The position numbers and the translations under genes are program-made. From positions 64,645,953 through 64,709,952 of the forward strand of contig CM049311.1 in NCBI GenBank assembly GCA_026874595.1: DNA of 64,000 nucleotides, written 5' to 3'. This DNA comes from Sipunculus nudus (Eukaryota > Annelida > Sipuncula > Golfingiida > Sipunculidae). Positions within the stretch are counted from its first letter, which is position 1. The number at the start of each line of letters is the position of its first letter. Below the pieces are notes generated by a model, which was not told the DNA's origin, ran no database searches, and worked only from the letters and a program-made list of their open reading frames with translations. This document shows, one piece after another, positions 8,894 to 43,100 of this stretch.

Positions 8894-8938
8894 TAGCCCG
8901 ATTGAATCGGACTCTTAGAGTCCGATTCAATCGGGCTA
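8894..8938. mobile_element. 45-bp perfect micro-palindrome with 10-bp target duplication
   Basis: Two perfect 21-bp arms (TAGCCCGATTGAATCGGACT plus one base) surround a 3-bp loop TTA. The insert is flanked by direct repeats CTATTACATC at 8884-8893 and 8939-8948. The related sequence near 410-425 has a single copy of this site and no palindrome, so it is an empty site. A 10-bp duplication is in the range produced by Mutator-like transposases; that assignment is inference. Confidence 0.75.
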
Positions 8939-9670: not shown

Positions 9671-10600
9671 TGCAGTAGCTTGAGGCAGCAATTTGTCACA
9701 GGTCACTCGGGGGCAACTGCCTTACTCACCTAAGCCTTGTCAGCCCAGTGCATCATACTCTGGGGAGGTTTGATGTATTGGACTGATATTTTGACCTGTC
9801 TATGCATATTTGATGGTATTCTCATTTACAAGACAGGTGGTTCTACCTACATTGACTTTTGCAGTGTATGGGCCTGAGTATTTCTACAGAGGAATTTGAT
9901 ACATCAGCCTAAAATTGGGCATGTTTATACATATCGGGTAGCTTTATAGTGTACAAGACTGGTGGCGCCACCTACAATAATTTTTGCGCAGTGTATGTCC
10001 TTGCTTATTTCACAGGAGGGGTTTGACATATCAGTCTGACATTGGGCATATGTATATATCTCTTCGTTGTATATAAGACTGGTGGTGCCAGCTACAATCA
10101 TTGTATCCTCCAAAACAGAGATTTGTGGATATTATGTTTTCAGTCTGACGCAGACGCTGCCGCCATCTCCACATAGGTTTCCGGAGAATTCCTCCATAAC
10201 CACTGGGCAGAATTTTTTTAAATTGGGAATTATGATCGGTCACATGTGAACTGCTGCACCCTCATTTTTGGTTGACCTCTGACCTTTCCTCTCTGCCCAG
10301 CGTCCATTTGTGCGTCTGTTTCCACACATAAACCCACATATCTTGGGAACCGTTTGACCAATAAGGCTAAAGATTTTGCACAAATGTAGCCCTTGGAAAG
10401 CTTTTTAACATACACTAACAAGTGACCCATGGGTCATGACGCTCAGCTGACTGGGAAGAGATTCGCAAAAGGAAATTTTATCATTAGAATGGTAGTATAT
10501 ACCCATTCAACTGAAGCATCAAACAGATTAACCAACAGCCCAAGATTTAGTCTGTATTTATATATCTTAAAAATAGAGAAAAATGTGTAAACTTTTAAAA

Positions 10601-11772
10601 CTAGAATACGGGTAACCGACAAGTGACTACATGTATCTGCCAAAATCGGATAGTGAGGCATGGATTGAGTGGCAAGGGGAAATAGAGTGAGGTATGTTGC
10701 ATATTAGCATGGATGTCTGCAGCCTAAATGTGTATGTAGGTTGTGCCACCTACCACAAATCCAGAAAGCTGTCCAAGTTGTATACACCTGCAAAATTTTA
10801 GGCAGAAAAGTCAAACAACTACATGTATATGAGCGATTTTTGCCCATGGCAGACAAACAGACAAACACTGTGCAAAAATCTTTGCAGGTAACCCCTCCAG
10901 TTTTGTGTATGATAAAGACCTATGTGAGATCTAAACACATGCACAATTTTGGCCCAATCGGTCAAATGGTTCCTGAGATATGAGCTTGGATGTGTGCAGC
11001 GTTAACTAGAATGTAGGTGGCGCCACCTGTCATAAAATCAAGAAAGCTGTCCACGATGTATAAACCTGCAAAATTTTAGGCAGTTATGTCGAACCACTAC
11101 AGAGAAATGAGTGATTTTAGGCCACGGCAGACTAACAGACAGACGCTGTGCAAACATTGTTACAGGTGGCGCCACCATTTTTTGTGTATGTAACAGAGCT
11201 ATCAAAGGGCTACATTTGTATAAATTGTATTTCCTGATCGGTCAAACGGTTCCCAAGATATAAGCTTGGATGTCATCAGCGTGAACGTGAATGTAGGTGG
11301 CGCCACCTGTCATAAAATCAAGAAAGCTATCCTGGATGTATACGCATGACGAATTTCAGGTGAATTAGTCAATTCACTGCAGAGATATGAGTGATTTTAA
11401 CCCAAGGCAGATGAACAGATGGACACTGTGCAAACATGGTTACAGGTGGCGCCACCATTTTTTGTGTATGTTATAAAGCAATCCAAGGGCTACATTTGTA
11501 TCAATTTTATTTCCTGATCGGTCAAACGGTTCCCGAGATATGAGGGTTTATGAGTGGAAACAGACCCACAAATGGACACTGGATAGAGAGGAAAGGTCAG
11601 ATGTCAACGCAAATTGGTTAGGCACCAGTTCACATGTGACCCGATAATAGGTGTAAGTTTGGGAAAAATCGGTCCATTAGTCTCCGAGGAGCTCTCTGGA
11701 AACGAACGCCGCCGCGGTGGAGGAACTCGGTCAAAAACATAGTATCCGCAAAACTTCGTTTTGGCGGATACA
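10601..11772 (-). mobile_element. Inner E3 element nested in E2 (left stack)
   Basis: On the minus strand a perfect stem GTATCCGCCAAAAC / GTTTTGCGGATAC (11742-11771) marks the 5' end. The 3' side has TTTTGGCAGATAC, an inverse of the 5' stem, then ACATGTAGTCACTTGT and ends TATTCTAG at 10601. Its length of about 1.17 kb equals the inner E3 of the right-hand stack. The ~280-bp P units inside carry boxes at 11016, 11165, 11296 and 11446. Confidence 0.75.
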
Positions 11773-13740
11773 AAAATACAGGTGGCTCCACCAGTCTGCA
11801 GAAACTAATAAAAACACTTAATGGTCAATATCCATGCAAAAAATCATGGTGATCTCTGCATTAGTTGTTCAGATACTTCAGTTTTTGTATCAAATTGTCC
11901 ATTATTCTGAGGGATACTTCGGAGTCCTATAGCTTGAAGGATATGGGTAACAGAGACCTAATTTCAAGTTTCCACAGGCACCTTTCATGGGCCTCCTTGC
12001 ATGACAAGAATGAAGATTCTAGGTCCAGTTGTTGCGATTTGTACCCTGTTGACAAATAACCACATCTTTAAAGGTCCCAAAAAAAAGAAAAAAATTCGTA
12101 AAAATTTGAAAAAAATAGAGGTGGCACACCCAGTCTGCAGAAACTGATGGAACAGCTCATGATCAATATGTATGCCGAAAATCATGACCATCAGTGTTGT
12201 AGTTATTGAAATACTGCAGTTTTTGTATCAAATTTTCCATTATTCTGGGGGGGGGGGGTATTTTGGACCCATACAGCTTAAAGAATATGGGTAACAGAGA
12301 CCTAATTTCAAGTTTCCATGGAGACTTTTCATGGGTCTCCCTGTGTGTCAAGAATGAAGATTCTTGGTCCAGTTTTTATGATTTGTGCCCTGTTAACAGA
12401 TGTTCATATCTTTAAAGGTCTCAAAAATACAGAAAAATTTCGTAAAAAAAAAACGAACAAATACAGGTGGTGCCACCAGTCTGCAGAAACTTATGAAACA
12501 CTCCATGATCAATATCCATGCAAACAATTATGGTTATCTCTGCATTAGTTGTTCAGATACTTTAGCTTTTGTATCAAATTTTCCATTATTCTGAGCTGTA
12601 CTTTGGAGTGCCATAGCTCAAAGGATATGGGTAACAGAGACCAAATTTCAGGTTTCCATGGAGACTTATCATGGGTCTCCCTGTATGTCAAGAACGAAGA
12701 TTCTAGGTCCAGTCGTTACGATTTGTACCCTGTTGACAGATAACTACATCCTTAAAGGTCTCAAAAATGGAGAAAACAATTCGTGAACATTAAAATATAC
12801 AGGTGGCGCCACCAGTCTGCACAAGCTGATGAAACATCTCATGATCAATATGTATGTCGAAAATCATGACTATCAGTGATGTAGTTAATGAGATATTGAA
12901 GTTTTTGTATGAAATTTTTTACTATTCTGGGGGGTAATTTTGGGCCCCATAGCTCGAAGGATATGGGTAACAGAGACCTAATTTCTGGTTTCCATGGAGA
13001 CTTTTCATAGGTCTCTCAGTGTGTCGAAAATGAAGATTCTAGGTCCAGTTGTTACGATTTGTGCCACGCTAACAGATGACAGCATCCTCAAAGGTCTCAA
13101 AAATAGAGGAAAAAATCATAAAAAATCAAACAGTACAGGTGGCGCCACCAGTCTGCACAAACTAATGAAACATCTCATGATCAATATGTATGTCGAAAAT
13201 CATGACCATCAGTGATGTAGTTAATGAGATATTGAAGTTTTTGTATGAAATTTTTGACTATTCTGGGGGGTAATTTTGGGCCCCATAGCTCGAAGGATAT
13301 GGGTAACAGAGACCTAATTTCTGGTTTCCATGGAGACTTTTCATAGGTCTCTCAGTGTGTGGAAAATGAAGATTCTATGTCCAGTCTTTATGATTTGTGC
13401 CTTGTTAACAATGTTCACATTTTTAAAGGTCTCAAAAATAGAGAAAAAAATCATAAAAAATCAAACAGTACAGGTGGCGCCACCAGTCTGCACAAACTAA
13501 TGAAACATCTCATGATCAATATGTATGTCGAAAATCATGACCATCAGTGATGTAGTTAATGAGATATTGAAGTTTTTGTATGAAATTTTTGACTTTTATG
13601 GGGGGTACTTTGGGGCCACATAGCTCGAAGGATATGGGTAACAGAGACCTAATTTCTGGTTTCCAAGGAGATTTTTTATGGTCCTCTCAGAATCCCAAGT
13701 TACAAGGTTCTAGGTCCAGCGGTTACGATTTGTGCCTGGT
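11773..13740 (-). repeat. Q-unit tandem array of E2, reversed
   Basis: About six reversed ~335-bp Q units with boxes near 11781 (ggtggctccacc), 12125, 12467, 12801, 13137 and 13473. Near identity with 24680-26560 is visible by eye: the conceptual reading of one unit differs at only 2 of 64 codons (11865-12059 versus 26274-26468). Confidence 0.75.
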
Positions 13741-13742
13741 TA

Positions 13743-13806
13743 ACGGACGGACAGACGGACAGACGGACAGACAGACAGACGGACAGACGGACAGACGGAC
13801 GACGGA
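13743..13806 (-). repeat. GGAC/AGAC microsatellite at the E2 5' end
   Basis: 'ggacagacggacagac' repeats. The same kind of tract follows the 5' hairpin in every E2 or E2b copy (24628-24670, 34798-34840, 42083-42150, 43147-43165), so it is part of the element. Confidence 0.8.
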
Positions 13807-15211
13807 CAAAGAGTGATCGCTATAGCTCAGATGACTTTCAGTCAGCTGAGCCAAAAATGGTGGTGCCACATGCAACCAATTTTGCACAGTGTCCATCTCT
13901 CATCTGCCTTGGAATAAAAACACTCATATCTCTGCATTGGTTTGGCTTATCCACCTGAAATTTTGCATGTGTATACATCCTGGACAGCTTTCTTGATTTT
14001 ATGAGAGGCCGCGCCACCTACATTCACGAAGCTGCAGATATCAAAGCTCATATCTCAGGAATCCTTTGACCAGTTCGGCCAAAATTTTGCATGTGAATAG
14101 ATCTCCCATAGCTCTTTATCATATGCAAAACTGGTGGTGCCACATGCAACCATTTTTGCACAGCTTCCATCTGTTCATCTGCCTTGGGATAAAACCACTC
14201 ATATCTTAGCAGTGGTTTGACTTACCTACCTGATATTTTGCAGGTTTATACATCCTTGACAGCTTTCTTGATTTTATGACAGGTGGCGCCACCTACATTC
14301 AAATTTATGCTGCAGACATCCGAACTTATATCTCAGGAACCATTTGACCTATTAGGCAAAAAATTTGCATGTTTATAGATCTCACATAGCTCTTTATCAT
14401 ACGCAAAACTGGTGGCACCACCTGCAATCATTTTTGCACAGCATCTGTTTCTTTGTTTGCCGTGGGATAAAATCACTCATATCTCGGCAACGGTTTGACA
14501 TATCTGCCTAAAATTTTGCAGGTTTATACATCTTAGATAGCTTTCTGGATTTTGTGGCAGGTGGCGCCACCTACATTTATGTATACACTGCAGACATTCA
14601 GGCTTATATCTCAGGACTGGTTTGACATATCCCCCTGAAATTGTGCATGTGTATAGATCTCACATAGCTCTTAACCATACACAAAATTGGTGGTGCCACC
14701 TGCCACCATTTTTGCAGAGCGTCCTTCTGTTTGTCTGACGTGGGCTAAAATCACTCATATCTCAGTAGTGGTTTGACTTATCTGCCTAAAATTTTGCATG
14801 TTTATACATCTTGGATAGCTTTCTGGATTTTTTGGCAGGTGGCGCCACCTACATTAATGTATATGCTGCAGACATTCAGGCTTATATCTCAAGACTGGTT
14901 TGACATATCCCCAAGAAATTTTGCATGTGTATAGATCTCACACATCTCTTAATCATACAAAAAATTAGTGGCGCCACCTGCCATCATTTTTGCACAGCGT
15001 CCGTCTGTTCATCTACCTTGGGATAGAAACTCTCATATCTCTGCATTGGTTGGACTTATCCACCTGAAACTTTGCATGTGTATACATCCTGGAGAGCTTT
15101 CTTGATTTTATGACAGGTGGCGCCACCTATATTCACGTTTATGCTGCAGACATCTAAGTTCATATCTTGGGAACTGTTTGACCAGTTGGGCCAAAATTTT
15201 CTGTTTGTCTG

Positions 15212-15821
15212 TGTCAGGGACAAAAATCCTAGGAGAAAAATGTTGAGGCCATAAATTCTGGGACACTGGTCATGTGACCAAAACAAGGGGCCACCAGAAC
15301 TAATTGCTCTGATATTGCATCAGGCTCCAACAGCCCTTGCTACTGATTTCATCAGTTTGTAACAGGTCAGCATATTGCACCACCCTGTGCAAGGGTTAGA
15401 GACCTTATAAACCCCAGGTCTGGGGAGCAGGCGGGGGAAATTACACTGAGAATCTGCCAACGCCAGGTACGACAGCAAGGACAATACTGGCAATAGAGAT
15501 CATGAGATGCTGATGCCGCACCATAGGGGTGAGGGGGCTGATGGCTGAAGTAACCTGGTGATAATATATGTTAAGAATAGAGAATAAGAAGAACCTGTAC
15601 TATGTCACATTGAAGCCTACTGTTAAGCTAGAACTACTGGAGTGTATCACTGGAGAATAATCAATATAGTAATTTGTGAACCTGGATATATCTATATATA
15701 TATACTGTGTATATATATATGTGTCAGATGAGGAATAAAGACGAGATATTCCCCTTTGGAGGACTACATTATATTTATATGGGACACTGAACACAAACAG
15801 CTCACACGAGCTGCCACGACA
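15212..15821 (+). mobile_element. Solo LTR, 610 bp, flanked by TCTG duplication
   Basis: It starts TGTCAGGG and ends CCACGACA, giving TGTC...GACA inverted tips. The 4-bp sequence TCTG flanks it on both sides (15208-15211 and 15822-15825) and splits a P-unit sequence ('gtttgtctgccatgggctaaaatc' when joined). A TATA-like 'cttataaacc' (about 15405) and a poly(A) signal 'ggaataaag' (about 15732) suit LTR promoter and terminator functions. The 4-bp duplication suits Ty3/Gypsy elements. The ORF at 15600-15842 is considered incidental. Confidence 0.8.
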
Positions 15822-16166
15822 TCTGCCATGGGCTAAAATCAATCATATCTCAGTAGTGGTGTGACTTATCTGCCTAAAATTTTGCAGGTTTATACACTTC
15901 TGATAGCTTTCTCGATTCTGTGGTAGGTGGCGCAACCTACATTTCAGCTGCAGACATCCATGCTAATATGCAAACACACCTCACTCTATTTCCCCTTGCC
16001 ACTCAATCCATGCCTCATGTTTGTTTGTTTCTTGTTCTAAGTGTTTAGTACTTGCATTGTTCATATACATGATACACATGTTTTTGAAAAGTAATGGTCC
16101 AGCATTGAAGCATTATACCTGGTGTAATCTCATTGCACAGGTTCGCATTAGGCCTGTAGGCCTTGT

Positions 16167-17690: not shown

Positions 17691-17739
17691 AAAACCCCCC
17701 CATTCCCTCCCTGTGAATGGTGGTTTTGTTAGTAAACTG

Positions 17740-17870
17740 TTGTGAGCTTTTCTGTATTAATGAGAATTTTCTCTGTTAAAGTTTATACGCCAGAGTAAGC
17801 CAACCGAAAATTTTCCCTTATTGGGCCTATTATCGCCCATCCCGCCTCGTTCCCGTGTATCTAGATCACA
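17740..17870. repeat. DIRS inverted terminal repeat (left)
   Basis: It contains 'ctgtattaatgagaattttc', 'gccagagtaagccaaccg' and 'gggcctattatcgcccat'. The same string is found inverted at 22829-22948. An outer tail unique to this side (17691-17739) includes 'cattccctccctgtgaatgg'. Confidence 0.9.
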
Positions 17871-17908
17871 TTTTCGAAGGCGTAAGGAAGAGGACTGGGA
17901 GCGAGCGA

Positions 17909-18024
17909 TGTTTGTAATACAGAAAAGCTAACAACAGTTTACTAACAAAACCACCATTCACAGGGAGGGAATGGGGGGGTTTTATTACGTAAACATAATT
18001 GTGAGCTGTTTCTGTATTAATGAG
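17909..18024. repeat. DIRS internal complementary region
   Basis: Its first part (to about 17981, 'cagggagggaatggggggg') is the reverse complement of the left outer tail. Its second part ('ttttattacgtaaacataat' onward) is the reverse complement of the right outer tail. It therefore represents the two element ends joined, as used in the DIRS circular-intermediate model. Confidence 0.9.
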
Positions 18025-18083
18025 AAAAAAACAGACATGCCTTGGGGAGGGAGCACCTACCTGTAACGCTGGAACGAGGAATC

Positions 18084-19067
18084 TCAGTGCTGGGATGGAG
18101 CAGCAGACGACGTCGGCGGTGGAACCGACATAGATGAAGAAGATGTCCTGGGAAATTGCAGGACCTCACCCGACGCGATCACCGGGCCCATGGAGTAGAG
18201 GCCCGAAGCCTTGAGCTGAACATCTTTCAGATAGAAGCGTGTGAACGTAGATGGGGATTTCCAGTATCCCTTCTTGACCAACTGATTGGGTGAGATCCCG
18301 GAGAAATGGGCCAAGGAAGTCGAAATAGCTCGAATGTCATGGGCCTTGATGTGAAGTTGGTCTAATGTGGATTGGGAAGCTGATTCATATGCGGCGACGA
18401 TAGTAGCTTTGAGCCACGCACTAATGGTGATAGGGCTAATCTCCTTATTGGAAGATGTGACTTTTGTAGAAATAAACAACTTCTTGCGCCCCCCCCCCCC
18501 CCCCATAAAAAATGAGTAGCTTTTAGATAATAACGCAACGCACGAACCAGGCAATTGGTAGCCCCATAACGGTACTGACCGTTAGGGAGGGCCGGAACAT
18601 GCCAAGCAGAAGGAGGGTCATCGAAATTTTGATTTTTCCTATAAAAATCCGGAGGAAAATGTAGGGTGGCCGACGAACCGTCGGCCGCAATTTGCGTGAA
18701 TTTCGAGTCAGCCACGAGGGCATGAAGCTCAGAACAGCGACCTGCCGAGGCAAGAGCTAGGAGGAAAACCGTTTTCCGAGACAAATGGATGGAGAAGATG
18801 GGCTGAACGCAACGGCTCATAAGGGGGTTCCCTGAGGTGACGTAAGACGACGTCCAGGTGCCAGGAAGGCGCAACATACCGAGGACGAGACGCCCTGGCA
18901 TGAACCCCCTTGAGAAAGTCCGACACCAACGGGTGATGAAGGACACGATCGTGACCCAGCGGACGGAGCACCGACAGGAGGGCGGCGCGATAGCCACGCA
19001 GAGAGGGATAGGATAAAAGTTTATCCTGCAGTAAGAACACGAAAAAATCTAAAACAGCCGCAAGCAA
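18084..19067 (-). pseudogene. DIRS tyrosine recombinase (integrase), frameshifted
   Basis: The family cuts and joins the circular cDNA during integration. In order the minus strand encodes an N-terminal SAM-like part ('SLRGYRAALLSVLRPLGHD'), then 'LSRKTVFLLALASAGRCSEL' with the first catalytic Arg (about 18730), 'IKAHDIRAISTSLAH' with the His-x-x-Arg pair (about 18328-18347) and 'TFTRFYLKDV' with the nucleophile Tyr (about 18230). All four signature positions can be seen. The frame is broken twice: near 18780-18830, and at a C/G homopolymer of about 16 bases at 18489-18504. The latter may be an assembly or sequencing slip. The C-terminus is Ser/Pro-rich. Confidence 0.88.
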
Positions 19068-19099
19068 CGGATCTAAAGGGGAGATTCAACGGGAAGACG

Positions 19100-19640
19100 C
19101 CCACTCCGTGAAGAGACGCCACTGGGAGTCATAGATGCGGTCCGAAGAACGGCGATGGGGAGCCGAGGCAAGGAGAGCAGCCGGACTTGAAATGCCCTGA
19201 TCTTTGAGGTGGCCGATGAGAGCACGCATGCGCATAGAGGGCATGACCTAAACGGGCGACGCGCTCGAGGGAACGACGGGAGCGCGATGCGGAGCGGAAG
19301 TATTAGCGGGGGGCGAGAGAGAAGCGAGTGCCACAGAGGAAACCAGGGAGCCGCAGGTTGAAACGGGAGGATGAGAAGCAGGGTAGTCTGGTCCGCGCGG
19401 GACAAGCAGAGAAGGACACGGCGGATGAGAGGAGGCGCCGGAAACGCAAAAAGAAACCGGTGAGACCACCCGGACGGCGGCGTGTCAGGGAGACGGTCGC
19501 GAGGGTGACGTAGAGGCGTCTCGGAAGGTACGAGAAGGGCGGGGGACGGAAAATCGAACAGATCGAATTCCGGCCGCCCCAGGCGAGCGAAAACACTCCG
19601 AATAACCGGGAGCGGAAGGAGCGGCGGAGAAGGAAGAGAC
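19100..19640 (-). pseudogene. DIRS polyprotein region between RNase H and recombinase
   Basis: Reading frames here give fragments such as 'GRPEFDLF', 'GWSHRFLFAFPAPPLIRRVL' and 'PAAPWFPLWHSLL'. They resemble the 'DLFA...', 'AYAFPP..LL..VL' and 'P.WP.Q.WFP.L' pattern found downstream of RNase H in DIRS polyproteins, where the Dam-like methyltransferase domain is usually placed. The region is in a different frame from the RNase H, so at least one frameshift separates them. A functional methyltransferase cannot be claimed. Confidence 0.6.
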
Positions 19641-20020
19641 TCCGGATGACGGGAAAGGGCACCGCGGGGATGTTCGACACGCCCAGAAGATGGGATGCAC
19701 GAACTGATGCCCGGAGAGAGAGGCATAGATCGAACAAAAGGTAAGTCTCCTGCATGAGCGAGGGAGACCCAGTACCGTCCTGCTTGTTGATATATGCCAC
19801 AACCGTGGTATTGTCGGTCCGGATGAGAATGTGACGGCCGATCAAACCGGGAGACCAGTGAGAGATCGCGCGACGGACGGCACGCAGTTCGAGGATATTG
19901 ATATGGAGCAGACGTTCCGACGGGGACCATATCCCGGAAGCGCGAAGATCGGCAAGATGGGCCCCCCAACCGAGGAGAGACGCATCGGTATAGATGGTGC
20001 AATCGACATCCATGGAAAAC
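19640..20020 (-). pseudogene. DIRS RNase H domain
   Basis: The family degrades the RNA of the RNA-DNA hybrid. The frame from 20013 reads 'DCTIYTDASLLGWGAHL' (first catalytic Asp), 'NILELRAVRRAI' (Glu) and 'ILIRTDNTTVVAYINKQ' (Asp), then 'HLLGVSNIPA'. The D-E-D core is intact. It sits in another frame from the RT above it, with the intervening thumb/connection largely missing. Confidence 0.88.
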
Positions 20021-20039
20021 GGAACGCCGCGCAGGAGAA

Positions 20040-20745
20040 GGGAGTGAGAAGAGAGTTCTCCGCATTGACCAGGAAGCCGAGGTTCCGAAGTAGGTTGAGA
20101 ACCCGGGAGCGATGCGACAGTAAGAGGGAGCGATCAGCCGCATGGACCAGCCAATCGTCCAGATAAGGGAGCACAGAAATGCCCTGTGATCAGAGATAAC
20201 TCGTGACCGTGTGAACCAGCATGGTAAAAATCCAGGAGGCCACATTGATCCCGAACGGAAGGGCCCGGAATGATAAACGCGGTTCTGATACGCGAAGCGA
20301 AGAAACTTGAACGATCTTGAACGCCCAATCCATCCTCCGAACAATGCGGAGCACAGCATGGATATTGAACATCCGAAACGGGGGCAGACGGATGAACCAA
20401 TTGAGGCGCTTCAGGTCTATGATCGGGCACCAACGGCCGTGCGGTTTGGGAACAAGAAAAAGGCGAGAGTAAAACCCCACGGTGGATGGGGAAACCTCGA
20501 AAATTGCCCGTTTGTCTAACATAGAGTGAATGGCCTCCTCCAAAGCGAGGCGTTTGTCCCGATCGGACGGAGGCGGAGTGAAGAACGGGTGCATGGTGAC
20601 GGGAGGTTCGTGCAAAAACGTAAGACGGAACCCGAACTTTACGGTGCTGAGAATTAACCGCTGTGAGGTGAGACCCGCCCACGCTGGAAAATGGGCGCTG
20701 AGCCGAGCGCCGACCGGAGCGAGAGAGTCATTTATGGGTCGAACC
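20040..20745 (-). pseudogene. DIRS reverse transcriptase, nonsense-mutated and shortened
   Basis: From about 20745 the frame reads 'NEVRPINDSLAPVGARLSAH', then 'GFYSRLFLVPKPHGRWCPII' and 'DLKRLNWFI' (fingers/palm), 'LSFRALPFGINVASWIFTML', an in-frame TGA at 20190-20192, and 'SVLPYLDDWLVHA' with the YxDD-type catalytic pair (20150-20169). After 'NLGFLVNAENSLLTP' (about 20050) the sequence runs almost directly into RNase H. This implies loss of roughly 100 codons that normally lie between these motifs in DIRS elements. The 5' part overlaps the Gag 3' end in another frame. Confidence 0.88.
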
Positions 20746-22684
20746 TCGTTTTGAGGATGGACCACGAAAAGGCTGAGAACGGCCGGAACGGCCGGAAGGA
20801 CGGGAAGACGGAGCAGATGCTTGACGCGGTTGAGCGGAAGCTGCAACCGGAGGCCGAGGGCGGGGCACGCGGAAGGAAGGCCTAGGCGCAAAGGAGACCG
20901 AGCGGAGGCGGGCCTGATGATCCGAGCGCTCCAAGGCGCGGTCAAAAAGAGGCCGTAAGTGGCCGCCAAACAGCAGGGAACTGGTAAAAGGCTGAGAATA
21001 AAGTTCCGTTAACTCCGCCTGAGTAAGCTCCGGCTTTAAGGTCTTTAAAGACTGAATGCAAGCCGTGCGGCGTAACAAAATTCAACTTTCAACCAGGCGC
21101 CAAACGACTTGATTTAACTCAGCGTAAGTATGGGCAGAAGCCTGCCAGATGTCATTGAGAGTGAGCGGGTCCGTAGAAACGGCGAGCAAGCTAGTGACAG
21201 CCTGCAAGTCGTTAACCATACCTCCAGATCCGACAGGTGACGATCGGACAGGTGGACAGAGGACGGAAATAAAGACTTACCGTCCGCAAATGGGTGTTTC
21301 AGGCCGGACTCGACATGCATCGGAGCAGACGGAATATCTGGGTGATCAGGAAAAGGTAGTAAGCGATCGAAACAGGTAGCCCGGTACCCACATGTATTCC
21401 AGAGGGTACCGGGGGACCAAGGTTTATCTGAACCTGGCGGAAGCGGGGCCCCAGTAGTGGTAGAGCGAGACCCCGAGACGACCGCGTGGTGCTCACGTAA
21501 GATATCCCCCGTGTGGGCTGTGAATTCCATGCACACGGTGGGCGTGGTCGAGGGCGATTGAAGGGCGGCAGGATTCAAATAAGAACCGGCCGCCGACGCC
21601 GAGGAAGTCCGAGGTTGTAACCGTCAGAACTTCGGACCACTAGGGTTAGCCTCCTGTGTGGAGGTAGCCACAAGGTCCAGAAGCGCAGATTTGCGCGTAT
21701 GCCAAGCCTGGCTTTGCAGCGCGATCTCCGACCACTGGTCAGGTGCCAGGGCGGGATCGGCTGACTGAGAAGTTGGGGACTCTGGAGAACCCCGGGTAGG
21801 GGGAGCCAGAGAGACCCGCTGTGCCAGAACAACCGGAGGCTGGAAACAGGAAGCCGGGGAACGAGCAGCAGCAGGAACCATCCAGGAAGGCACAGGAACC
21901 GGAGCCTCCGGCCGCACATCAGACGGCAACTGAAAAGAAGATACGGCCGGCCGGTCAGTAACAGCGGGAGACTGAGGAACCGGCAGCGAGGCCGGCTGCC
22001 CCGAGCCTGAGGCAGGAGGGACCGACGCACTACCTGCACACCCGGAAGGGCAGGGCGAACCAGGGGGACGGCCCCAGCCGGCCCTGGGGATAACGAAGGA
22101 AGCCGGCGAGGAGCCGGGGGCGACGAGAACGGCCGGGGAGTAAGTACTGGGGGCGCCGGCGAGGGAGCCGGGCGGACGGGATCGGGTCTAGACGAACCGT
22201 CTAGATCCGACATAAGTGATGAGCAAAACCGGGACAATTTATGTAATATGGAATAGGCAGATGTGCTGTCAGAACGGGAGGCCGCGGGAACTGGGGAAGA
22301 TTTCCGTTTCCGTGAATGAGAAAGCAATGATTTAACTGGCGAAACCACGGGAGAGGTGACAGGACCGGGGGGAACGGACGGTGAACGCAGCACGGCCATG
22401 GTGCAGTCAACCAGGGTAGGCTCCCCCCCCTCCCCCCCGGAGACAACCACGGGGCCAGACAAGGGAATATTGGAGGGGGAACCCCCAATAACCAGGGAAT
22501 GAACCCAATCCTGGAACAAGGCCCACTTGTCAGTGGACCACGTCTGGCAATGGAAACAAGGATCAGCCGGACCGCGGCAGGAGTCATTGTTGGTGCGGCA
22601 ACTATAACAAGTGGGGTGGGAGTCCCATACCGGGATTATAGTGCCACAAGAGACACAATAAGTGGGGTTCTCCATGGCGGGCAA
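20728..22684 (-). pseudogene. DIRS Gag-like ORF, broken
   Basis: The ATG at 22684 (or the next Met at 22675) starts a protein with a Cys/His cluster: CVSC, then HPTCYSC, then a lone Cys, then CFHC. It probably binds zinc. A long Ser/Pro-rich linker follows. The frame shifts at about 21930-22200, meets TGA at about 21620, continues through 'NPAALQSPSTTPTVCMEFTA', and shifts again. It finishes with 'SLKTLKPELTQAELTELYSQ' and an Arg/Pro/Ser-rich tail to 20728. The Cys/His start plus a basic tail fits DIRS Gag. There is no evidence for a cellular gene. Confidence 0.75.
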
Positions 22685-22828
22685 GGGAAAATAAGAACAA
22701 CTTACAATCAGTTGGCAAACTCAAAACGACAAACCCAACAGTGGAGGAATCTCGCAGCGCGGAATCAAACGTCCATCATGGCGTACGCCAGAAGAAAATG
22801 TGATTATGGGTAACGGAAGTGTGACCTA

Positions 22829-22948
22829 GATACACGGGAACAAGGCGGGATGGGCGATAATAGGCCCAATAAGGGAAAATTTTCGGTTGGCTTACTCTGG
22901 CGTATAAACTTTAACAGAGAAAATTCTCATTAATACAGAAACAGCTCA
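22829..22948. repeat. DIRS inverted terminal repeat (right)
   Basis: Inverse of 17740-17870 with only a few differences. The outer tail 'ttatgtttacgtaataaaacc' continues to 22972. Confidence 0.9.
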
Positions 22949-22972
22949 CAATTATGTTTACGTAATAAAACC

Positions 22973-23447
22973 AGTTTATAATCACTCTTTTAATATAATT
23001 TCTATTGTCACTCACACTGTAACATCAGAAAATTGCACATTATGTTAACAAGAAAAATGACAAACATATCTGTAAAAAATCTGCATTTTTTATACATAGA
23101 ATTCAACATAAAACAAATCATTTAATACAATAAAGCAGACCTGTGGCCAATTCTGAACTGAATTGGAACTGAAAGGAAAATCATATGCACTGAAATTGAA
23201 CTGACAAAAATAAGAATGAAATTATTTGGAATTAATGAGTGAACTTGCCAAGATGGGATAAATTTACAAACTACCAGTAATGTTCCATTTTACAAAAGTG
23301 TAGCTCCATCTCTTAATCATAAAAAGTACTGATTAAGAACTGAACTGGAATGGGAGAATCTGGATTGACCCAAAGTCTTATGTACATCATTCAGTTAAGA
23401 AATGGCATGCCTTTGTTGAAAGGTTTCACATGGACTAGAATACATAA
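22973..23447. other. AT-rich interval, nothing recognised
   Basis: Unique-looking AT-rich sequence between the DIRS and the right-hand nested stack. 'actagaataca' at about 23434 echoes the E3 3' tip that follows. Confidence 0.5.
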
Positions 23448-24627
23448 CTGGAATACGGGTAGTCAACAAGTGACGTGTATCCGCCAAAATCAGAGTGGAA
23501 TGGGTGAAGTGAGGCATGGATTGAGTGACAAGGGGAAATAGAGTGAGGTGTGTTGCATATTAGCATGGATGTCTGCAGCTGAAATGTGTATGTAGGTGGC
23601 GCCGCCTGCCAAAAAAATCAAGAAAGCTAACCAAGATGTATGAACACGCAAAATTTTAGGCAGATAAGTCAAACCACTACTGAGATATGAGTGATTTAGC
23701 CCACGGCAGACAAACAGACAGACGCTGTGCAAAAATGGTTGCAGGTGGCCCCTCCATTTTTGTGTATGATAAAGAGCTATGTGAGATCTATACACATGCA
23801 ACATTTTGGCCCAATCAGTCAAACAGTTCCTGAGATATGAGCTTGGATGTCTGCAGCGTAAACTAAAATGTAGGTGGTGCCACCTGTCATAAAATCAAGA
23901 AAGTTGTATATATCTGCAAAATTTTAGGCAGATATGTCAAACCACTGCCAAGTTATGAGTGATTTTATCCCACAGCAGACAAACAGATGGACGCTGTGCA
24001 AAAATGGTTGCAGATGGCCCATCCAGTTTTGCATATGATAAAGAGCTATGTGAGATCTATACACATGCAAAATATTGGCCTAATCGGTCAAACTGTTCCC
24101 GAGATATGAGCTTGGATGTTGCAGCATAAACTAGAAGTAGGTGGCGCCACCTGTCATAAAATCAAAAAAGCTGTTCCGGATGTATAAACCTGCAAATTTT
24201 TGGCAGATATGAGAAACCACTGTCGATATATGAGTAATTTTATCCCAAGGCAGACAAACAGACGGACACTGTGCAAAAATTGTTTCAGGGGGCGCAACCA
24301 ATTTTGCGTATGGTAAAGAGCTATGGGAGATCTATACACATGCAAATTTTCAGGAAGATACGTCAAACCAGTCCAGAGATATAAGCATAGATGTCTGCAG
24401 CGTGAACATGAATGTAGGTGGTGCCACCTGTCATAAAATCAAGAAAGCTACCCAGGATGTATACGCATGCCAAATTTCAGGTGAATTAGTCAAACCACTG
24501 CGGAGATATGAGTGATTTTAACCCAAGGCAGACAAACAGGTGGACACTGTGCAAACATGGTTGCAGGTGGCACCACCATTTTTAGCTCAGCTGACTGAAA
24601 GTCATCTGAGCTATAGCGATCACTCTT

Positions 24628-24670
24628 TGTCCGTCGTCCGTCTGTCTGTCTGTCCGTCTGTCCGTCCGTT
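24628..24670 (+). repeat. CCGTCTGT-type microsatellite of E2
   Basis: 'gtccgtcgtccgtctgtctg' repeats immediately downstream of the E2 5' hairpin; counterpart of 13743-13806. Confidence 0.8.
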
Positions 24671-24679
24671 AACCAGGCA

Positions 24680-27734: not shown

Positions 27735-28229
27735 TTTTTAAAAGTTTACACATTTTTCTCTATTTTTGAGATATATAAATACAGACTAAATCTTGGCCTG
27801 TTGGTTAATCTGTTTGATGCTTCAGTTGAATGGGTATATACTACCATTCTGGTGATAAAATTTCCTTTTGCGAATCTCTTCCCAGTCAGCTGAGCGTCAT
27901 GACCCATGGGTCACTTGTTTATGTATGTTATTAAGCTATCCAAGGGCTACATTTGTACAAAATGTTTTTCCTGATCGGTCAAACGGTTCCCGAGATATGT
28001 GGGTTTATGTGTGGAAACAGATGCACAAATGGACGCTAGGCAGAGAAGAAAGGTCAGAGGTCAAAACAAAATAGGGGCGCAGCCGTTCACATGTGACCTA
28101 AACATAATCCTGGGTTTCCTAAAAATCTACCCAGCGGTTAGGGAGATGTTCTCCCGACACCTACGCATCGGCGGTGGCGGTGGTGGGCTGAAAACATAGT
28201 ATCCGCAAAACTCTGTTTTGGCGGATACA

Positions 28230-29127: not shown

Positions 29128-30198
29128 CTATGAAGCTTGTGGTTTGTACTTTGAAGTTTTCTTTATGTGACCTGCTTCTATCATGCTGTAACACATATCA
29201 ATAATGGTCTTCTCCAGTGGAATCGGTCTCACGCCCAATACATTAACAAGCCTGCTGTTGTCCATGATGGTTTCTTTATTAATGATTGGGACAATGACTC
29301 TTAAAGTTTTGTCAAAAAGGCTTGCAACACGGATCATGAACTTTGGTGCAATCTTGGTAGGAATATTATATCCCTGAGGCCGAAATTCCTTTTGGACAAT
29401 TTCAGCGATTTGATGCATCCACAGGCATCCGTTAGAAACAATATGTCTGTGTCCTGCTGCCTCAGGAACGTTCATGGCATTAACATGGGCAGCAGCCACA
29501 TCACGGACATCACAGATGGCAAAACTCAGCTTCGGCAACAAAGGCATCTCATGCTGCATCAAACGTTTGGGTACTTCCATGCTGGTTGTGAAAGTCCCGC
29601 ACATTACTGGACCCATCACATAACCTGGATTTATCACTGCTAGTTCAAACTTTTCTCCTTGATCTAATTCTTCTACAAATTTCCATGCAGCTCTTTCGGC
29701 TTTAGCTTTACTTCTGATATATGCAGTATTACTCATATCGTTTTCATCAGTCCAATCCTGTTCAGTGAACACCTTCCCATCATGCCCTCCTGTGTACGCT
29801 ACTGATGCTACAGAACTGGTTAGTACAACTCTCTTGACTGTCCCAGCAGCTTTGCAAGCTCTCAACACTGACAAAGTTCCTTCTACGGCTGGTTTGATCA
29901 GTTCCTCATCAGACTTGGGATTTGCGGCTGGAAATGGACTTGCCACATGCATTACATAATGACATCCCTGTACTGCTGGTAACCATGAATCTGGTTTCAT
30001 CAAATCCGCCTCAACCAGCTCCAGTGACTCCTTGGCCTCTGGACACAACTCTTGCAGAGGTTTGACTTTCTTCTCATTCTTGAGGCTTCGCACAGTACCT
30101 CGAACATTATACCCTCCTTGTAGTAACTGTTTCACAACATGTGTTGCAATGTAACCTGATGCACCTGTCACTAAGACCTTCCCACTTCCTGATGCCAT
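29128..30198 (-). CDS. Extended short-chain dehydrogenase/reductase, DFR/aldehyde-reductase-like
   Basis: A 356-residue NAD(P)H-dependent oxidoreductase, probably cytosolic, encoded without interruption. The Rossmann motif is VLVTGASGYIATHVVKQLL at residues 8-26, with Ala where the family often has a third Gly. 'MHVASPF', 'LTSSVAS' (catalytic Ser) and 'TAYIRSKAKAERAAW' (Tyr-x-x-x-Lys) follow. The C-terminal substrate domain includes 'AVINPGYVMGPV' and 'ICDVRDVAAAHVNAM'. The length suits dihydroflavonol-4-reductase / yeast-type aldehyde reductase relatives; the true substrate is unknown. The ATG at 30198 was chosen over an upstream Met because a splice acceptor ('tttatatttcag') ends at 30207, 8 nt before this ATG, so an upstream non-coding exon is expected. 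No signal peptide or membrane segment is seen. Confidence 0.93.
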   Translation of the reverse strand: MASGSGKVLVTGASGYIATHVVKQLLQGGYNVRGTVRSLKNEKKVKPLQELCPEAKESLELVEADLMKPDSWLPAVQGCHYVMHVASPFPAANPKSDEELIKPAVEGTLSVLRACKAAGTVKRVVLTSSVASVAYTGGHDGKVFTEQDWTDENDMSNTAYIRSKAKAERAAWKFVEELDQGEKFELAVINPGYVMGPVMCGTFTTSMEVPKRLMQHEMPLLPKLSFAICDVRDVAAAHVNAMNVPEAAGHRHIVSNGCLWMHQIAEIVQKEFRPQGYNIPTKIAPKFMIRVASLFDKTLRVIVPIINKETIMDNSRLVNVLGVRPIPLEKTIIDMCYSMIEAGHIKKTSKYKPQAS

Positions 30199-30230
30199 TA
30201 TAGTACCTGAAATATAAATACAAACACATT
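30199..30230 (-). other. Splice acceptor and short 5' UTR of the dehydrogenase exon
   Basis: The minus strand reads 'tgtatttatatttcag' then 'gtactata' and ATG. The AG occupies 30208-30207, so the exon starts at 30206. The upstream exon could not be placed. Confidence 0.65.
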
Positions 30231-31530
30231 TAAAAAATATAGACCATTTATTACAAGACAAGACCCTTATAATAAATACAGACCATTTAAATTAAGACAG
30301 TCCTTTTAAAAGAATACAGCCTGGTTTACAAATACAAACACTTTAAATATACAGTAAAACCTCAGTGTGTCAAAGTCAAAGGGACTGGTGAAATTACTTC
30401 GACTCAAGCGGAGTTCGAGACAACCGGTATATTCATTATATTCAACCTCCTTCAGCCTTGGTTATTATAGATAAATTCTGCACATGTATACGGCCGATGT
30501 TATATAGTTCTATCGAATGTTTGCGTGAAAGAACAACATAAATGTTTTGATTAATTTATTTATCAATAATAAAAAAGCATACAAGTTCCACAAAAAATAG
30601 GATTAGGTAAATAAAAAAGTGAAGCAGTAAAGCAGCATAAAATGCTCTACAGTAAATAAGAGTCAGTCTTAAAGGTGTCATCTGTTTCCTTATTTATAGA
30701 GTCCTTTATGTTTATCCTAGATACATCAAAGGTAAGGATTCCATTTTGTTTGGTTTATTAATAACTTCTCATTTCGAATTAATGCTTTGTTGGCGAGTGA
30801 AGAAAGGCATGATCATGAGTGACTTATTGGCCAAACAGGTAAACAATGAACCAGGGGTGTAAACTATTGGGCCTGATGCGTAAGATCCTAGATAATTATA
30901 TAACTGGTCATCACGGCCGTAGGTATGATTAATGGACCATGTACAACTGATATCCAAACATTAAAGTGGCATGACCTCATGTTGAGCGACAGAGCCATCA
31001 CCCTTGCCGGTATTAATTACGTATAACTGGTCATCACGGCAAAATCACGATTGACAGGTCGTGCACAACTGTTATCCAAACATTCAAGCAACATGACTTC
31101 CAAATACTAGCTTGGGACCAACAAAACACTTCGACACATCACGTTTTTCAATACATCCAAGTTTGACACAAAAGGGAGTTAAATTAGTAAGGTTTTGACT
31201 GCTTTTTGCAGGGACTCTGCTATTGACTTTGACACATGCGGGAATTGGACTTAACCTAGGTTGACACAAAAGGTTTCACTGTATATACATACTCTTTCTA
31301 TTACATACCCTTTAAAAGTATACAGATTCCTTATGTAAATGAATACAACCCTTGAGATAAATACATACCCTTTAATACACACAAACACTTTATATTTAGC
31401 CTTAAAAGGGACACAAACCCTTTAGAATTTAAATATCTGTTGAAAGGAATGGAGACCCTTAACACCAATAAAAACATTTAAAAGAATTTAGAACCTTTAC
31501 AAAAATACAGACCCTTAAAGTATATGCTAC
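30230..31530. repeat. Degenerate minisatellite (AATACAGACCCTTTA-like), split by a Tigger-like element
   Basis: Before 30350 and again from 31300 to 31530 the sequence repeats variants of 'aaatacagacccttta' about every 25-35 bp ('aatacatacccttta', 'aatacagacccttaa', 'aatacaaacacttta'). The two blocks are separated by the element at 30352-31281 and were probably continuous. Confidence 0.55.
30352..31281. mobile_element. Tigger/pogo-like non-autonomous element
   Basis: The left end CAGTAAAACCTCAGTGTGTC and the right end, inverted as CAGTGAAACCTTTTGTGTCA, match the CAGT.AAACCT pattern of Tigger termini. TA flanks both sides (30350-30351 and 31282-31283), as expected for the Tc1/mariner superfamily. 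At 930 bp it has no transposase ORF. An internal near-repeat, 'taactggtcatcacgg', occurs at about 30900 and 31024. Confidence 0.75.
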
Positions 31531-32980: not shown

Positions 32981-34881
32981 AACAAGGGACCTATGGGTCA
33001 CTGTGCTCAGCTGATGTTAACCTTGAAGGTAAAAATCTAAAATAATATCAAATGGAGATAAAGTGTAAGAGGAAGAGGTAATAAAGGCCATGGTTGGTTT
33101 ATATGATTGGTTTGTATTGATGAGCAAGAAATTGTTGCAAAAAATATTTTGTGACCTGACCATGTGTTTCCTAATGTTAAAACTAAAGCATGTGAGCAGT
33201 TTGTACAAATGATCTGTACTATTACCATGATCATTAGTTTGTTTTTCGATTAACTGTAGACATTTCAGTAGTTTACACATTTGTTCAATTGGATCTATTT
33301 TTTTGTATAATATATATTATTAAATATATATGTATTTTTTTAATGATATGTATACAGTTGAAATAGAGCTAATAAACAACATAAAACAGGGCAAACAAAG
33401 CCTGATCTCAAATTCTGCTGAGGCAGGAAAATAATGAACAAATGTTTGTATTAAATCCTCATTTTTTTTTATCACATCAATTATTTTCTAATTTAAGTTT
33501 TTATATCTATACATTTCCAATTTAACATATATATCTGAATATAAAAGTTGATTCATAATTCTCAAATGCATCATCATAAATCTCAATCTTGTCAGATAAC
33601 ACCACATCATGCATACAAATGTTTATTTATGTTTATGTTTATGTTTAGCAAAAACAATAAATATCTAAAAATAATACTTGATTTAGATTTCACAATTTTT
33701 AATTGTGTCTTTATTTATCCATAATGTGCTTCATATTTTATAATAATTTAAGCATACTGATGGGTTCAATTATATTTGTTAAAATCAATTAAAAGAAAAC
33801 TGATTTCTTTAAAAATGCTACTTTACACAACATTGCATCTTCTTGATTACACCTTGAATAATTTTTTCAAGGAAAGTTTTTGCATATCGGAGTGGAAACA
33901 GCATTACAATTAAGGAGATACAGTGAAAACAATAACAATTAGTGCATAACACTTGGTGGGTTGGGCTTGCGGGGGGGGGGGGGGGGGGGGGAGGGGGGGG
34001 GGAGGGGGGGGGGTGATTGGGGTGGTGATATGAGAATAACTGTACACCTGTCACAGCAGGGGATCTCCCCCAGTGACTGTAACAATTTAAATCAGAAACC
34101 CTGGCTGACTTCCAGTGACCTGGAGTGGGACCTTGCATCTGTAATCAAAGCAAGTGACTACAGAAAAAAAAATCAATAACTAGCTTAATTTTCAAGCTTT
34201 TATTTTCAAATTTCAGATTTAAACAAACTAAATATTTATGTTTATATGCTGTGAAAATTAAATCAATGGTGCTTACAGGAAAAAAACGTGCTATGGTCAA
34301 AGTTGGGCAAAATTTAAGGTACTGATTTTTTTTAAGCTAATAACTTAAAAAAATTTACAAAATTCAGATCTAATTTTTGGTAAACAATTGAATCTTAATT
34401 AAACATAGTTATATACTTGAGAAAATAGACTCTAGTTTCAAAATTTTTCATGTTAAGTGAGTTATTATTTTTCCTGATTTTTTACAAAGTCCATTATGTT
34501 TGGGCCCATAACTTAAAGAATTTATACTTTACAGACTTAATTTCTTGCATGTACATAGGAACTATATAGAGGAATATTTATGGTAAATATGAGGAAACAC
34601 AGATGAGTGGTTTTGATATTAGGCAGTCCTGAAGTGTGAAAATAGGATTTTAATAAAAAATTGAGGTTTTTCCTTAATTTCTCAAAGGAATGAAGTCGCA
34701 AAGACCCAGTTTTTGGCTTGGTAGGAGATCTTGGGGACATCTAACATTATGCTGAATTTTGGATTCCTAGGTCTTACGGTTTCAAAACGTGCCACATCTA
34801 CGGACAGACGGACGGACAGACGGACGGACGACGGACAATGGACCACTACTATAGCTCAGATGACTTATAGTCAGCTGAGCT
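32981..34881 (-). mobile_element. Complete E2b element, reversed
   Basis: The minus strand begins AGCTCAGCTGACTATAAGTC with its hairpin partner (34881 downward), followed by a GTCC microsatellite (34798-34840) and a body that includes 'ttgaggtttttcctta'. It ends TCAGCTGAGCACAGTGACCC, the rest of a hairpin, and CCTTGTT at 32981. At 1.9 kb it is close in length to the other full E2b (43101-44972), and the two share a body. A G-run lies at 33971-34012. No ORF of note. Confidence 0.72.
33971..34012 (+). repeat. 42-bp nearly pure G tract
   Basis: Only G with two or three single A interruptions. It could form G-quadruplexes and is prone to copy slippage and assembly error. Short Gly- or Pro-rich frames over it are artefacts. 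Confidence 0.9.
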
Positions 34882-37060: not shown

Positions 37061-37061
37061 A

Positions 37062-40222: not shown

Positions 40223-40860
40223 TAGGGCTGGGGTTATTACAACCAAATGTAATTCATTACGATTACTTGCAAATTTTCGAATTACAATTACAATTATAAT
40301 TACATAGATTTGCAAATGCAATTAATTACAATTACAATGAAAAGAAATTGAATTACATTTTATTAACTTTTAATTACTTTGTAAGTTAAAAAAACTTGGA
40401 CACTTACAATGCAGAAAATGAACAGAAAATATACAAAAGTGGGCTTTATTAGCATTAAAATGTCAGATTAAAAATGTCAGGATGTGTACCAGTGTATAAT
40501 GTGGTCGCTGATTAACTATACTGAATACAAAAAATACATAAATGTACTTGCACTGCTTGGTTGAATTAAATTCATGTCTATTTGGTGCATATCTGTGCAT
40601 GTCTATGATATTATATTGTTCACAAACTGTTGGCTGCAGTTTATCATGAACAAAGTCTAAGATGTAGTGTCATTCATGAAACATCTGTCCGGCCTAAACA
40701 AATTGCCTTCTATACTGAAAGGTCACTTATCCTTGGACATTATGTCCTCCCTTTGGGCACAAAAGCTAATGATGACTGCATTATTGTTAAATCACTGTCA
40801 GCATTCCCCGATCATCACTGATAGGTCCTTGATATCCAAACACAATGAAATTTTCTATGT

Positions 40861-41720
40861 TTAGGAGCCGTAAAACAATCAAAAGTAGGTCAACCGGGAT
40901 GAAACGCAAACTCGATCTGTAACTGTCATTATCTTCCCACACAAAAAAATCAGGGTGGTAACTGCAGGCATTGAGGAAAAAAAGTCAGTACATATGCATT
41001 TGTTATGAATATTTCTATTTTTCATGAAAATTTCTAAGTTTAGGAGCCATAAAACGGTCAAAAGTAGGTCAACTGAGACAAAACAAGAACTCGATCTGTA
41101 ACTGGTCTATATCTGCCCACACACCAAAAATCAGGCCAATATCTGCAGGCATTGCGAAAAAAAAATCTGTACATGTGTATCTGTCATGAATATTTCTATT
41201 TTTCATGAAATTTTCTAAGTTTAGGAGCCGTAAAACGGTCAAAAGTAGGTCAACCGGGACGAAACGTGAACTCGATCTGTAACTGGTCCATATCTGCCCA
41301 CACACCAAAAATCAGGCCAATATCTGCAGGCATTGCGAAAAAAAGTCTGTACATGTGTATCTGTCATGAATATTTCTATTTTTCATGAAAATTTCTAAGT
41401 TTAGGAGCAATAAAACGGTCAAAAGTAGGTCAACCGGAACGAAACGCGAACTCGATCTGTAACTGGTCTATATCTGTCCACACACCAAAAATCAGGCCAA
41501 TATCTGCAGGCACTGCGAAAAAAAATCCGTACATGTGCATTTGTCATGAAATTTCATATTTTTCATGAAATTTTCTAAGTTTAGGAGCCGTAAAACGGTC
41601 AAAAGTAGGTCAACCTGGACAAAACACAAACTCGATCTGTAACTGGTCTATATCTGCCCACACAACAAAAATCAGGCCAATATCTGCAGGCATTGCGAAA
41701 AAAAGTCCGTACAACTGTTT
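40861..41720. repeat. 180-bp tandem array, about five units
   Basis: 'ttaggagccgtaaaacggtc' recurs at 40861, 41040, 41221, 41401 and 41581. Each unit also has 'aactcgatctgtaactggtc', 'atatctgcaggcattgcg' and 'atatttctatttttcatga'. The array is probably the core of the element whose 5' hairpin lies at 41769-41797. Confidence 0.9.
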
Positions 41721-41799
41721 GATTTCGGAATGACGGAAGGACGGAATGACGGACATGGGTAAAACTATATGCCCCGGCCACTTTGTGGCGGGGGCATAG
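41721..41799 (-). mobile_element. 5' end of hairpin element E4
   Basis: 'atgccccggcc' and 'ggcgggggcat' form a stem around 'actttgt' (41769-41797), and 'gacggaaggacggaatgacgg' follows on its left. On the minus strand this is hairpin, 'atatagtttt', then a short microsatellite, the same order as in E2 and E3. The 180-bp array would be its core; no 3' end was found. Confidence 0.65.
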
Positions 41800-42041
41800 A
41801 AAACACAATGCAACCAGCCTCTTAAGATGCTTTTTGGTCAACAGCAGACAGCTTGGATGAATGCAGTGAGGCAGAACACCTGCAGAGGGCTGCTTCAAAT
41901 TAACTTAGGGAGGTGTCACACAGAAACCCTCCCAAGAGACATTGTTAGGGATAAGATGGAAACATACAGCGAAGGTGAAACATGGACACAGAGGGATCCA
42001 AGTCAGCAGTGTTGACTACTGTGTAGCAATATTCATTTTTT
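41800..42041. other. Short interval, nothing recognised
   Basis: The frame at 41827-42015 has no recognisable domain. Confidence 0.4.
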
Positions 42042-43100
42042 AGCTCAGCTGACTGTAAGTCATCTGAGCTTTAGCAATCACTCTTTGTCCGTCGTCCGTC
42101 CGTCTGTCTAGCTGTCTGTCTAGCCATCTGTCGGTCCGTCCGATAACCAGGCACAAATCGTAACCGTGGACCTGGAATCTTCTAACTTTACATCCAGAGA
42201 GGTTCATGAAAAATCTCCTTGAAAACCTGGAATTAGGTCTCTGTTACCCATATTCTTCAGGCTATGGGGCTCTGAAGTACCCCCAAGAATAATGAAAAAT
42301 TTGATACAAAAACTCGAGTATCTGAACAACTAATGCATTGATCACGATTCTGTGCACAGATATTGATCATGGAGGGTTTCATCAGTTTCTGCAGACTGGT
42401 GGCGCCACCTGTATTTTTTCGATTTTTACGATTTTTTTCTCTAGTTTTGAGACCATAAAAAATGCGGTCATCTGTTAACAGGGCACAAATCGTAACTGCT
42501 GGACCTGGAATCTTCTTACTTTACATCCAGAAAGGTCCATGAAAAGTCTCCATGGAAACCTGGAATTAGGTCTCTGTTACCCATATTCTTCATGCTATGG
42601 GGCTCTGAAGTACCCCCAAGAATAATGAAAAATTTGATACAAAAGCTCAAGTATCCGAACAACTAATGCATTGATCACCATGATTTTTTGCATGGATAAA
42701 GATCATGGAGTGTTTCATCAGTATCTGCAGACTGGTGGCGCCACCTGTATTCTTTTGATTTTTTGCAATTTTTTTCTCTGTTTTCAAGACCTTAAAAGAT
42801 GCGGTCATCTGTTAACAGGGCACAAATTGTAACCGCTGGACCTGGAATCTTCTTACTTTACATCCTTAGAGGTCCATGAAAAGTCTCCTTGGAAACCTGG
42901 AATTAGGTCTCTGTTACCAATATTCTTCAAGCTATGGGGTTCTGACGTACCCCCCAGAATAATGAAAAATTTGATACAAAATCTCAATTGTCTGAACAAC
43001 TAATGCATTGATCACCATTATTCTTTGCATGGATATTGATCATGGAGTGTTTCATCAGTTTCTGCAGACTGGTGGTGCCACCTGTATTCTTTTGGTTTTT
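42042..43100 (+). mobile_element. E2 element, 5' part with three Q units
   Basis: The 5' hairpin AGCTCAGCTGACT / AGTCATCTGAGCT starts at 42042, then a CCGTCTGTCTAG microsatellite. Q units follow with boxes at 42399, 42735 and 43071. No E2 3' end follows directly; the array runs into an E2b at 43101. These Q units are a distinct subfamily ('ggacctggaatcttct', 'gatgcggtcatctg'). Confidence 0.75.

Follow-up and report, generated by a model that had tools for sequence, protein, structure and literature searches.

Do nested elements that end beside one and the same palindrome read that palindrome, or only the T-run next to it? We addressed this question in a stretch of 64,000 nucleotides from Sipunculus nudus (the window hereafter; C6:64645953-64709952 of a source genome of 1,426,538,692 bp in 153 contigs), in which repeats of the families H1, E2, E2b and E3 are inserted into one another next to the 12-letter palindrome GGTGGCGCCACC (the box). 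Their anatomy and the junctions that were read support the view of the initial annotation that these are Helentron-like elements inserting in T-runs. It is very probable that they are T-run-targeting non-autonomous Helentrons (HINEs), and that the box comes with array monomers and is not itself read by the transposase. The striking palindrome at the nested junctions would thus be mostly a consequence of T-run placement in abundant array monomers.

Box and T-run at the insertion sites

Six pairs of box and junction had been annotated in the window, and all six are present within a base or two:

10081-10092: box with 2 mismatches, in H1; 5' end of the outer left E3 at 10103
13859-13870: box; 5' end of E2 at 13852, minus strand
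24566-24577: box, one base from the position first annotated; 5' end of E2 at 24584
26543-26554: box; 5' end of E3 at 26564
11781-11792: box; 5' end of E3 at 11771, minus strand
43071-43082: box; 5' end of E2b at 43101

Box and 5' end are 6-18 bp apart at these junctions, which account for 6 of the 11 recognised 5' ends in the window. The box-free ends are those of E2 at 42042, E2b at 34881 (minus strand) and the outer right E3 at 28228 (minus strand), together with two placed by eye: near 7434 a hairpin end resembling that of E3, and near 6742 (minus strand) one resembling that of E2b.

The box has 111,729 exact copies in the genome, versus 14 for its reversed string, and with up to 2 mismatches it occurs 54 times in the window, versus a mean of 0.55 in 100 shuffles. 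Because 47 of these 54 boxes lie inside tandem arrays, the box mostly belongs to array monomers. Among 22 E2 monomers its conservation averages 0.92, compared with 0.83 for the whole monomer; since 25 of the 337 twelve-base windows are at least as well conserved, the box lies in the best-kept stretch of the monomer, yet is not alone there. The E2 monomer of about 337 bp is roughly twice as long as the central repeats of about 160 bp in the Pearl elements of bivalves, a comparison by length. By eye, the bases after the box resemble each other in H1, E3 and E2, which suggests a common ancestral core for the box region of the three families. A search of Viral_contigs with a box-centred 27-mer gave no match, and a literature search with the box string gave a single match, to an unrelated paper. 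As the initial annotation proposed, several families carry the box, and box arrays of one family receive separate insertions of others, at an E3-array spot and an E2-like spot described below.

Genome-wide, 32,724 E2-type 5' ends follow a T5 run. An exact half-box lies 1-11 bp before the T5 at 543 of them (1.66%), and the other 98.3% have none. Similarly, among 70 E3 flanks read from the first 100 listed of 4,848 places, 56 lack a box in the nearest 25 bp, and 50 end in ATT. Thirteen of the 14 box-adjacent E3 flanks are copies of one junction, that of E3 inside E2, and the sampled E3 copies show two box junctions, both repeated elsewhere. In E2-type flanks not selected for a box, one was found within 25 bp in 1 of 20 outside the window (L064; these 20 genuine ends were picked by eye from 46 rows that include wrong-strand hairpin matches) and in 1 of 20 on contig C1 (L103, with 3 mismatches). 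Most insertions of E2-type and E3 elements are thus at T-runs with no box nearby, a pattern that the initial annotation had regarded as contrary to its own proposal of the box as an extra targeting layer. A site-specific transposon directed by the box would place most insertions at the recognised sequence; here 543 of 32,724 ends are so placed.

T5 runs occur at 3.51-3.93 per kb per strand, which gives 10.0-11.2 million runs genome-wide. Box-side T5 sites were counted 55,659 times with the forward and 95,311 times with the reverse pattern (3,250 and 2,127 for the reversed-pattern control); the reverse count was taken as overlapping T windows, and about 111,000 sites, twice the forward count, were used as the total. 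T-run supply alone then predicts 325-364 box-side ends (1.0-1.1%) versus 543 observed, a ratio of 1.49-1.67 that would drop to about 1.1-1.2 if both counts were summed (150,970 sites). Taken by itself, the E2 box site occurs 27,910 times and received 125 insertions, a ratio of 1.37-1.53 to the average T5 run. An excess of 1.4- to 1.7-fold per site is therefore what stands of the proposed targeting layer, which is weak at best, and the repeated hits on box-side T-runs are explained mainly by their being T-runs within very abundant arrays.

Several points weigh against the view that the box goes unread. The box-side excess is beyond counting error, so some effect of the box or its context exists. 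In the same E2 monomer, a T-run about 45 bp from the box took 42 insertions, versus 125 at the box-side run; these two runs number 28 and 37, respectively, in the window and the sampled loci, by which the box-side run would be used about 2.2 times as often. Moreover, only exact half-boxes were counted, the counts are of copies unproven as single events, the T5 density comes from four non-random samples, and no autonomous partner was matched by termini.

These points bear on the alternative that insertion is guided by the box: palindrome and T-run would mimic the element's own 3' end (palindrome, few bases, T), and Rep would nick there. The Rep of adeno-associated virus treats its chromosomal target as a nicking site. 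Repeated use of the same spots speaks for such guidance. The string CACCATTTTT was read at 8 of 132 loci: diverged E3 arrays account for 5 of these, another box array accounts for 1, and 2 have no box. At the E3-array spot, those five and the two window copies carry three kinds of insert (L080 with both window copies; L081, L083 and L085; L082), and this comparison of seven copies shows at least three insertion events, judged by the kind of insert. Within a kind, the divergences of host and insert are too close to prove further events; the exception is the pair of window copies, with 83% identity in the host and 94% in the insert. The string CCACCTGTATTTTT was read at 4 of 125 loci, and all four insertions at this E2-like spot differ in host or insert. 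Box-side junctions are also varied, with 54 distinct gap strings among 100 listed of the 543, and the excess of 1.4-1.7-fold, perhaps 2.2-fold against the matched run, also speaks for guidance. On the other side, 98.3% of E2-type ends are without a half-box, the sampled E3 copies have only their two repeated box junctions, and a box-free spot of a common host, E2b-like, was also entered at least twice by E2-type elements among 20 flanks (L096/L110 and L098). Guidance by the box is thus unlikely, and under T-run targeting the excess would come from T-run context or access.

Anatomy of the elements and their proposed movement

E2, E2b, E3 and H1 are HINE-like in anatomy, in different degrees, when their sequences are compared with the published layout as given in excerpts of PMC4067079 and PMC7492417. 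In E2, the subterminal inverted repeat (subTIR) AGCTCAGCTGACT has its complement in the 3' end with 1 mismatch, and an inverted repeat (IR) complementary to the 5' subTIR has 1 mismatch. The subTIRs of E3 have 1-2 mismatches in 13, and its IR has 3 mismatches ungapped, forming an imperfect hairpin. E2 contains an ACGG-type microsatellite and the array of about 337-bp monomers. The microsatellite was seen in E2 and E2b; E3 has an array, and tandem-repeat and sequence inspection of its window copies revealed no microsatellite, a feature that some published HINE copies also lack (excerpt of PMC4067079). The 3' palindromes (TGACCCATGGGTCA in E2 and, by eye, AGGCCTGTAGGCCT in H1) are clear in E2, E2b and H1, and E3 has only a weak one. 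Where E2 is inserted in the outer right E3 and E3 in E2, host sequence picks up again beyond the 3' end at the far edge of the same T-run, with no duplication; the sites are thus T-rich or TT and lack a target duplication, as in HINEs.

The box sequence common to the families would also be expected if arrays of different families had been joined at the shared box via recombination or template switching and not by transposition. The junctions, however, sit in the T-run at 5' hairpin ends, which are element termini, and the host resumes across the same T-run after the 3' end, so that such joining is highly improbable.

Under T-run targeting, HINEs would be moved as single strands by a Rep/helicase encoded elsewhere in the genome, as suggested by their anatomy and the presence of Rep genes. 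The Helitron Rep domain (Helitron_like_N) has 143 genome matches (150 of 195 candidates scored), several of them in open frames of 1,882-2,426 aa. The 5' end is joined to a T-run or TT, and wherever this was read the host continues beyond the 3' end across the same run with no duplication. Because array monomers of several families carry the box with a T-run close behind, insertion into that T-run adjoins the box, which the transposase would not read. A nested pair, E2 with an E3 inside (E2[E3]), can spread as one unit, for which the evidence is given below.

The elements resemble Cg_HINE of Crassostrea gigas, as described in an excerpt of PMC7492417, in having a 5' subTIR, a complementary IR, a microsatellite, a tandem array, a 3' subTIR, a palindrome and a T-rich target without target-site duplication. 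They differ from it in monomer length (about 337 bp and 280 bp here, mostly 140-180 bp in Cg_HINE), in the one 12-bp palindrome common to several families, and in a composite in which the inner element retains both its ends and whose junction has 924 exact copies. With DINE-1/HINE and Helentrons (excerpt of PMC4067079) they share the layout of the termini, the TT or T-rich target and the absence of target modification, and they differ in that no autonomous partner is matched here by termini.

History of the nested copies

Two outer E3 copies, left (E3L) and right (E3R), each hold a composite E2[E3]; the features concerned are these:

8031-10102, plus strand: 5' part of H1 copy 2, host of E3L, recognised by self-similarity to 706-2869 and 2905-3047
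16017-16166, plus strand: 3' part of H1 copy 2, which resumes at about 16017, with the 3' palindrome TTAGGCCTGTAGGCCTTGT
10103-16017, plus strand: E3L, with 5' hairpin end and 3' part 15822-16017, last bases missing; it contains two insertions, E2[E3] at 10417-13852 and, near 15217-15815, a TG..CA insert like a long terminal repeat (LTR)
13853-15200, plus strand: array of E3L, boxes every 129/149 bp
10417-13852, minus strand: left E2[E3], E2 5' end at 13852 and 3' end near 10417; microsatellite 13743-13808, array 11772-13744
10601-11771, minus strand: inner E3 within the left E2
23446-28228, minus strand: E3R, 5' end at 28228, its own host junction without box; interrupted by E2[E3] at 24584-27919
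24584-27919, plus strand: right E2[E3], with subTIR, IR, microsatellite, array, 3' subTIR and palindrome
26564-27734, plus strand: inner E3 within the right E2; the genome has 924 exact copies of a near-identical left-side junction
42042-44974, plus strand: chimaera of an E2 5' part (42042-43100) joined to E2b (43101-44974)

The initial annotation cautioned that the left and right stacks may not be independent, and that all nested cases in the window may descend from one duplicated stack. The arms 10100-12846 and 28231-25487 are indeed 96% identical over 2,753 bp, in inverted order. Within E2[E3], left and right copies share 97.8% identity in the E2 3' tail, 98.4% in the inner E3 and 96.8% in the remaining E2 (94.8% in its 5' half), whereas the outer E3 parts share only 81% and 84%, and this shift from 95-98% to 81-84% falls at the junctions. 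Furthermore, the nearest sampled relative of E3L is L022, at 92% identity over the 5' part, compared with 81% for E3R; the sampled copies closest to E3R are L035 and L046 (89-90%). L022 has the same H1 junction string as E3L and an empty E2 site, and its H1 host is 90% identical to the window H1 over 473 columns and 68% over the last 300 bp. In L080, a related E2 is inserted at the corresponding position of E3, and host (87%) and insert (88%) have diverged from the left copy to much the same extent, which leaves some weight to an earlier, shared E3[E2] event. On these identities it is most likely that E2[E3] inserted twice, once in each outer E3 copy and at the same T-run, and descent of all nested cases from one duplicated stack is quite unlikely. 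Duplication of the whole stack is disfavoured at the outer level; it would require gene conversion to have ended precisely at each of the two junctions.

The suspected common descent does hold for the inner E3-in-E2 junction, which, judged by its repeated letters, is one old event now moving as a composite. The left and right stacks of the window are neither six separate events nor a single one. The inner junction recurs in 13 of the 70 E3 flanks, letter-identical over 42 bp in 11 cases and with a single change in the other two, and its 33-letter string has 924 exact genomic copies. The outer 3' end of the composite was located in 12 of the 13 copies, and the DNA beyond it differs except in the pair L012/L013. 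E2[E3] is thus a clear case of a nested HINE turned unit of spread, and one route to multi-array elements; some Cg_HINE elements have two arrays (excerpt of PMC7492417).

The junction at 43100 is one-sided, since E2 does not resume after the E2b 3' end at 44974. This is what a strand that starts at the outer 5' end and terminates at the first 3' end would leave. The chimaera resembles the product of the model proposed for composite FoHelis of Fusarium oxysporum, with a nick at the outer 5' end and a stop at the first 3' end (excerpt of PMC5148889). Unlike these Fusarium Helitrons, the elements here are non-autonomous, and E2[E3] keeps both inner ends.

The 15217-15815 insert in the E3L array has TG..CA termini with TCTG on both sides, and by eye it is solo-LTR-like.

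Orientation blocks and other features of the window

At the start of C1 (96436-2225363, for E2 arrays to 4.65 Mb), rolling-circle families lie in long same-strand blocks; the analysis covered these families and the first 4.7 Mb of this one contig. Of the listed E2-type 5' ends, the minus strand carries 74 of 75 at 0.096-1.15 Mb and the plus strand 14 of 14 at 1.228-1.469 Mb, and the 100 listed ends form 6 strand runs versus 36.4 expected (0 of 20,000 shuffles). E2 arrays alternate in blocks to 4.65 Mb (100 listed arrays, collapsed to 50 loci; 13 runs versus 21.2, 207 of 50,000 shuffles). E3 ends up to 1.5 Mb are also in same-strand blocks, and 20 of 21 E3 ends lie on the strand of the E2 array nearest to them (16 of 17 once the four in the same composite are set aside). 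Plus-strand H1 monomer markers, among the first 100 listed, number none at 0-1.16 Mb and 4 at 1.2-1.5 Mb; a further hairpin considered for the orientation test has 7 copies only. T-run supply differs between the strands by only about 1.3:1.

Tandem segmental duplication was rejected as the cause of the first block, as the 20 minus-strand E2-type flanks read are 20 different places; but L012/L013 share a flank, and a single event may underlie L096 and L110, whose host and insert sequences agree at 94%. L098, L100, L092 and L107 are also in related repeat hosts. A putative cause, which we put forward tentatively, is insertion into single-stranded T-runs of the lagging-strand template, whereby orientation would record replication direction. 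If forks ran leftward toward a chromosome end (forks and end both putative here), the lagging template would be the minus strand, in agreement with the first C1 block. IS200/IS605 inserts into the lagging-strand template, and its orientation follows replication direction (excerpt of the review PMC5371812); that system is bacterial, and here there are only orientation blocks on part of one contig. A literature search for Helitron orientation bias or Helentron target-strand choice gave, among the papers listed, nothing on point besides this review. Several observations argue against the lagging-strand explanation: E3 ends beyond 1.5 Mb are not significantly clustered (87 ends, 39 runs versus 44.5, 2,837 of 20,000 shuffles), orientations in the window are mixed, and neighbouring copies are not independent, with L012/L013 showing local duplication. 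If the blocks do stem from replication, the elements would be a fossil record of fork direction and would bear on the choice of target strand by Helentrons. The orientation blocks and the amplification of the composite are the parts worth following.

The window contains these further features:

3045-5912, plus strand: E2 copy whose T-rich tract received H1 copy 1 (which reaches to 3044); only the 3' side is visible
32981-34881, minus strand: E2b copy, surrounding DNA without box
17719-22973, minus strand: retroelement-like unit with inverted termini and a complementary internal region, between both outer E3 copies
29128-30291, minus strand: 387-aa open frame for an NAD-dependent epimerase/dehydratase, like 3-beta-hydroxysteroid dehydrogenase (Epimerase, E 6.8e-24)
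40845-41810: 180-bp tandem array adjoining a GC-rich hairpin; the genome contains 7 exact copies of the 23-letter hairpin arm

The unit at 17719-22973 is GC-rich, has broken frames and is DIRS-like by layout. A first Pfam scan of ten proteins, including seven fragments of this unit, found no mobile-element domain, and a second scan found an RNase H domain (PF17917, E 5.9e-7) in one of five fragments.

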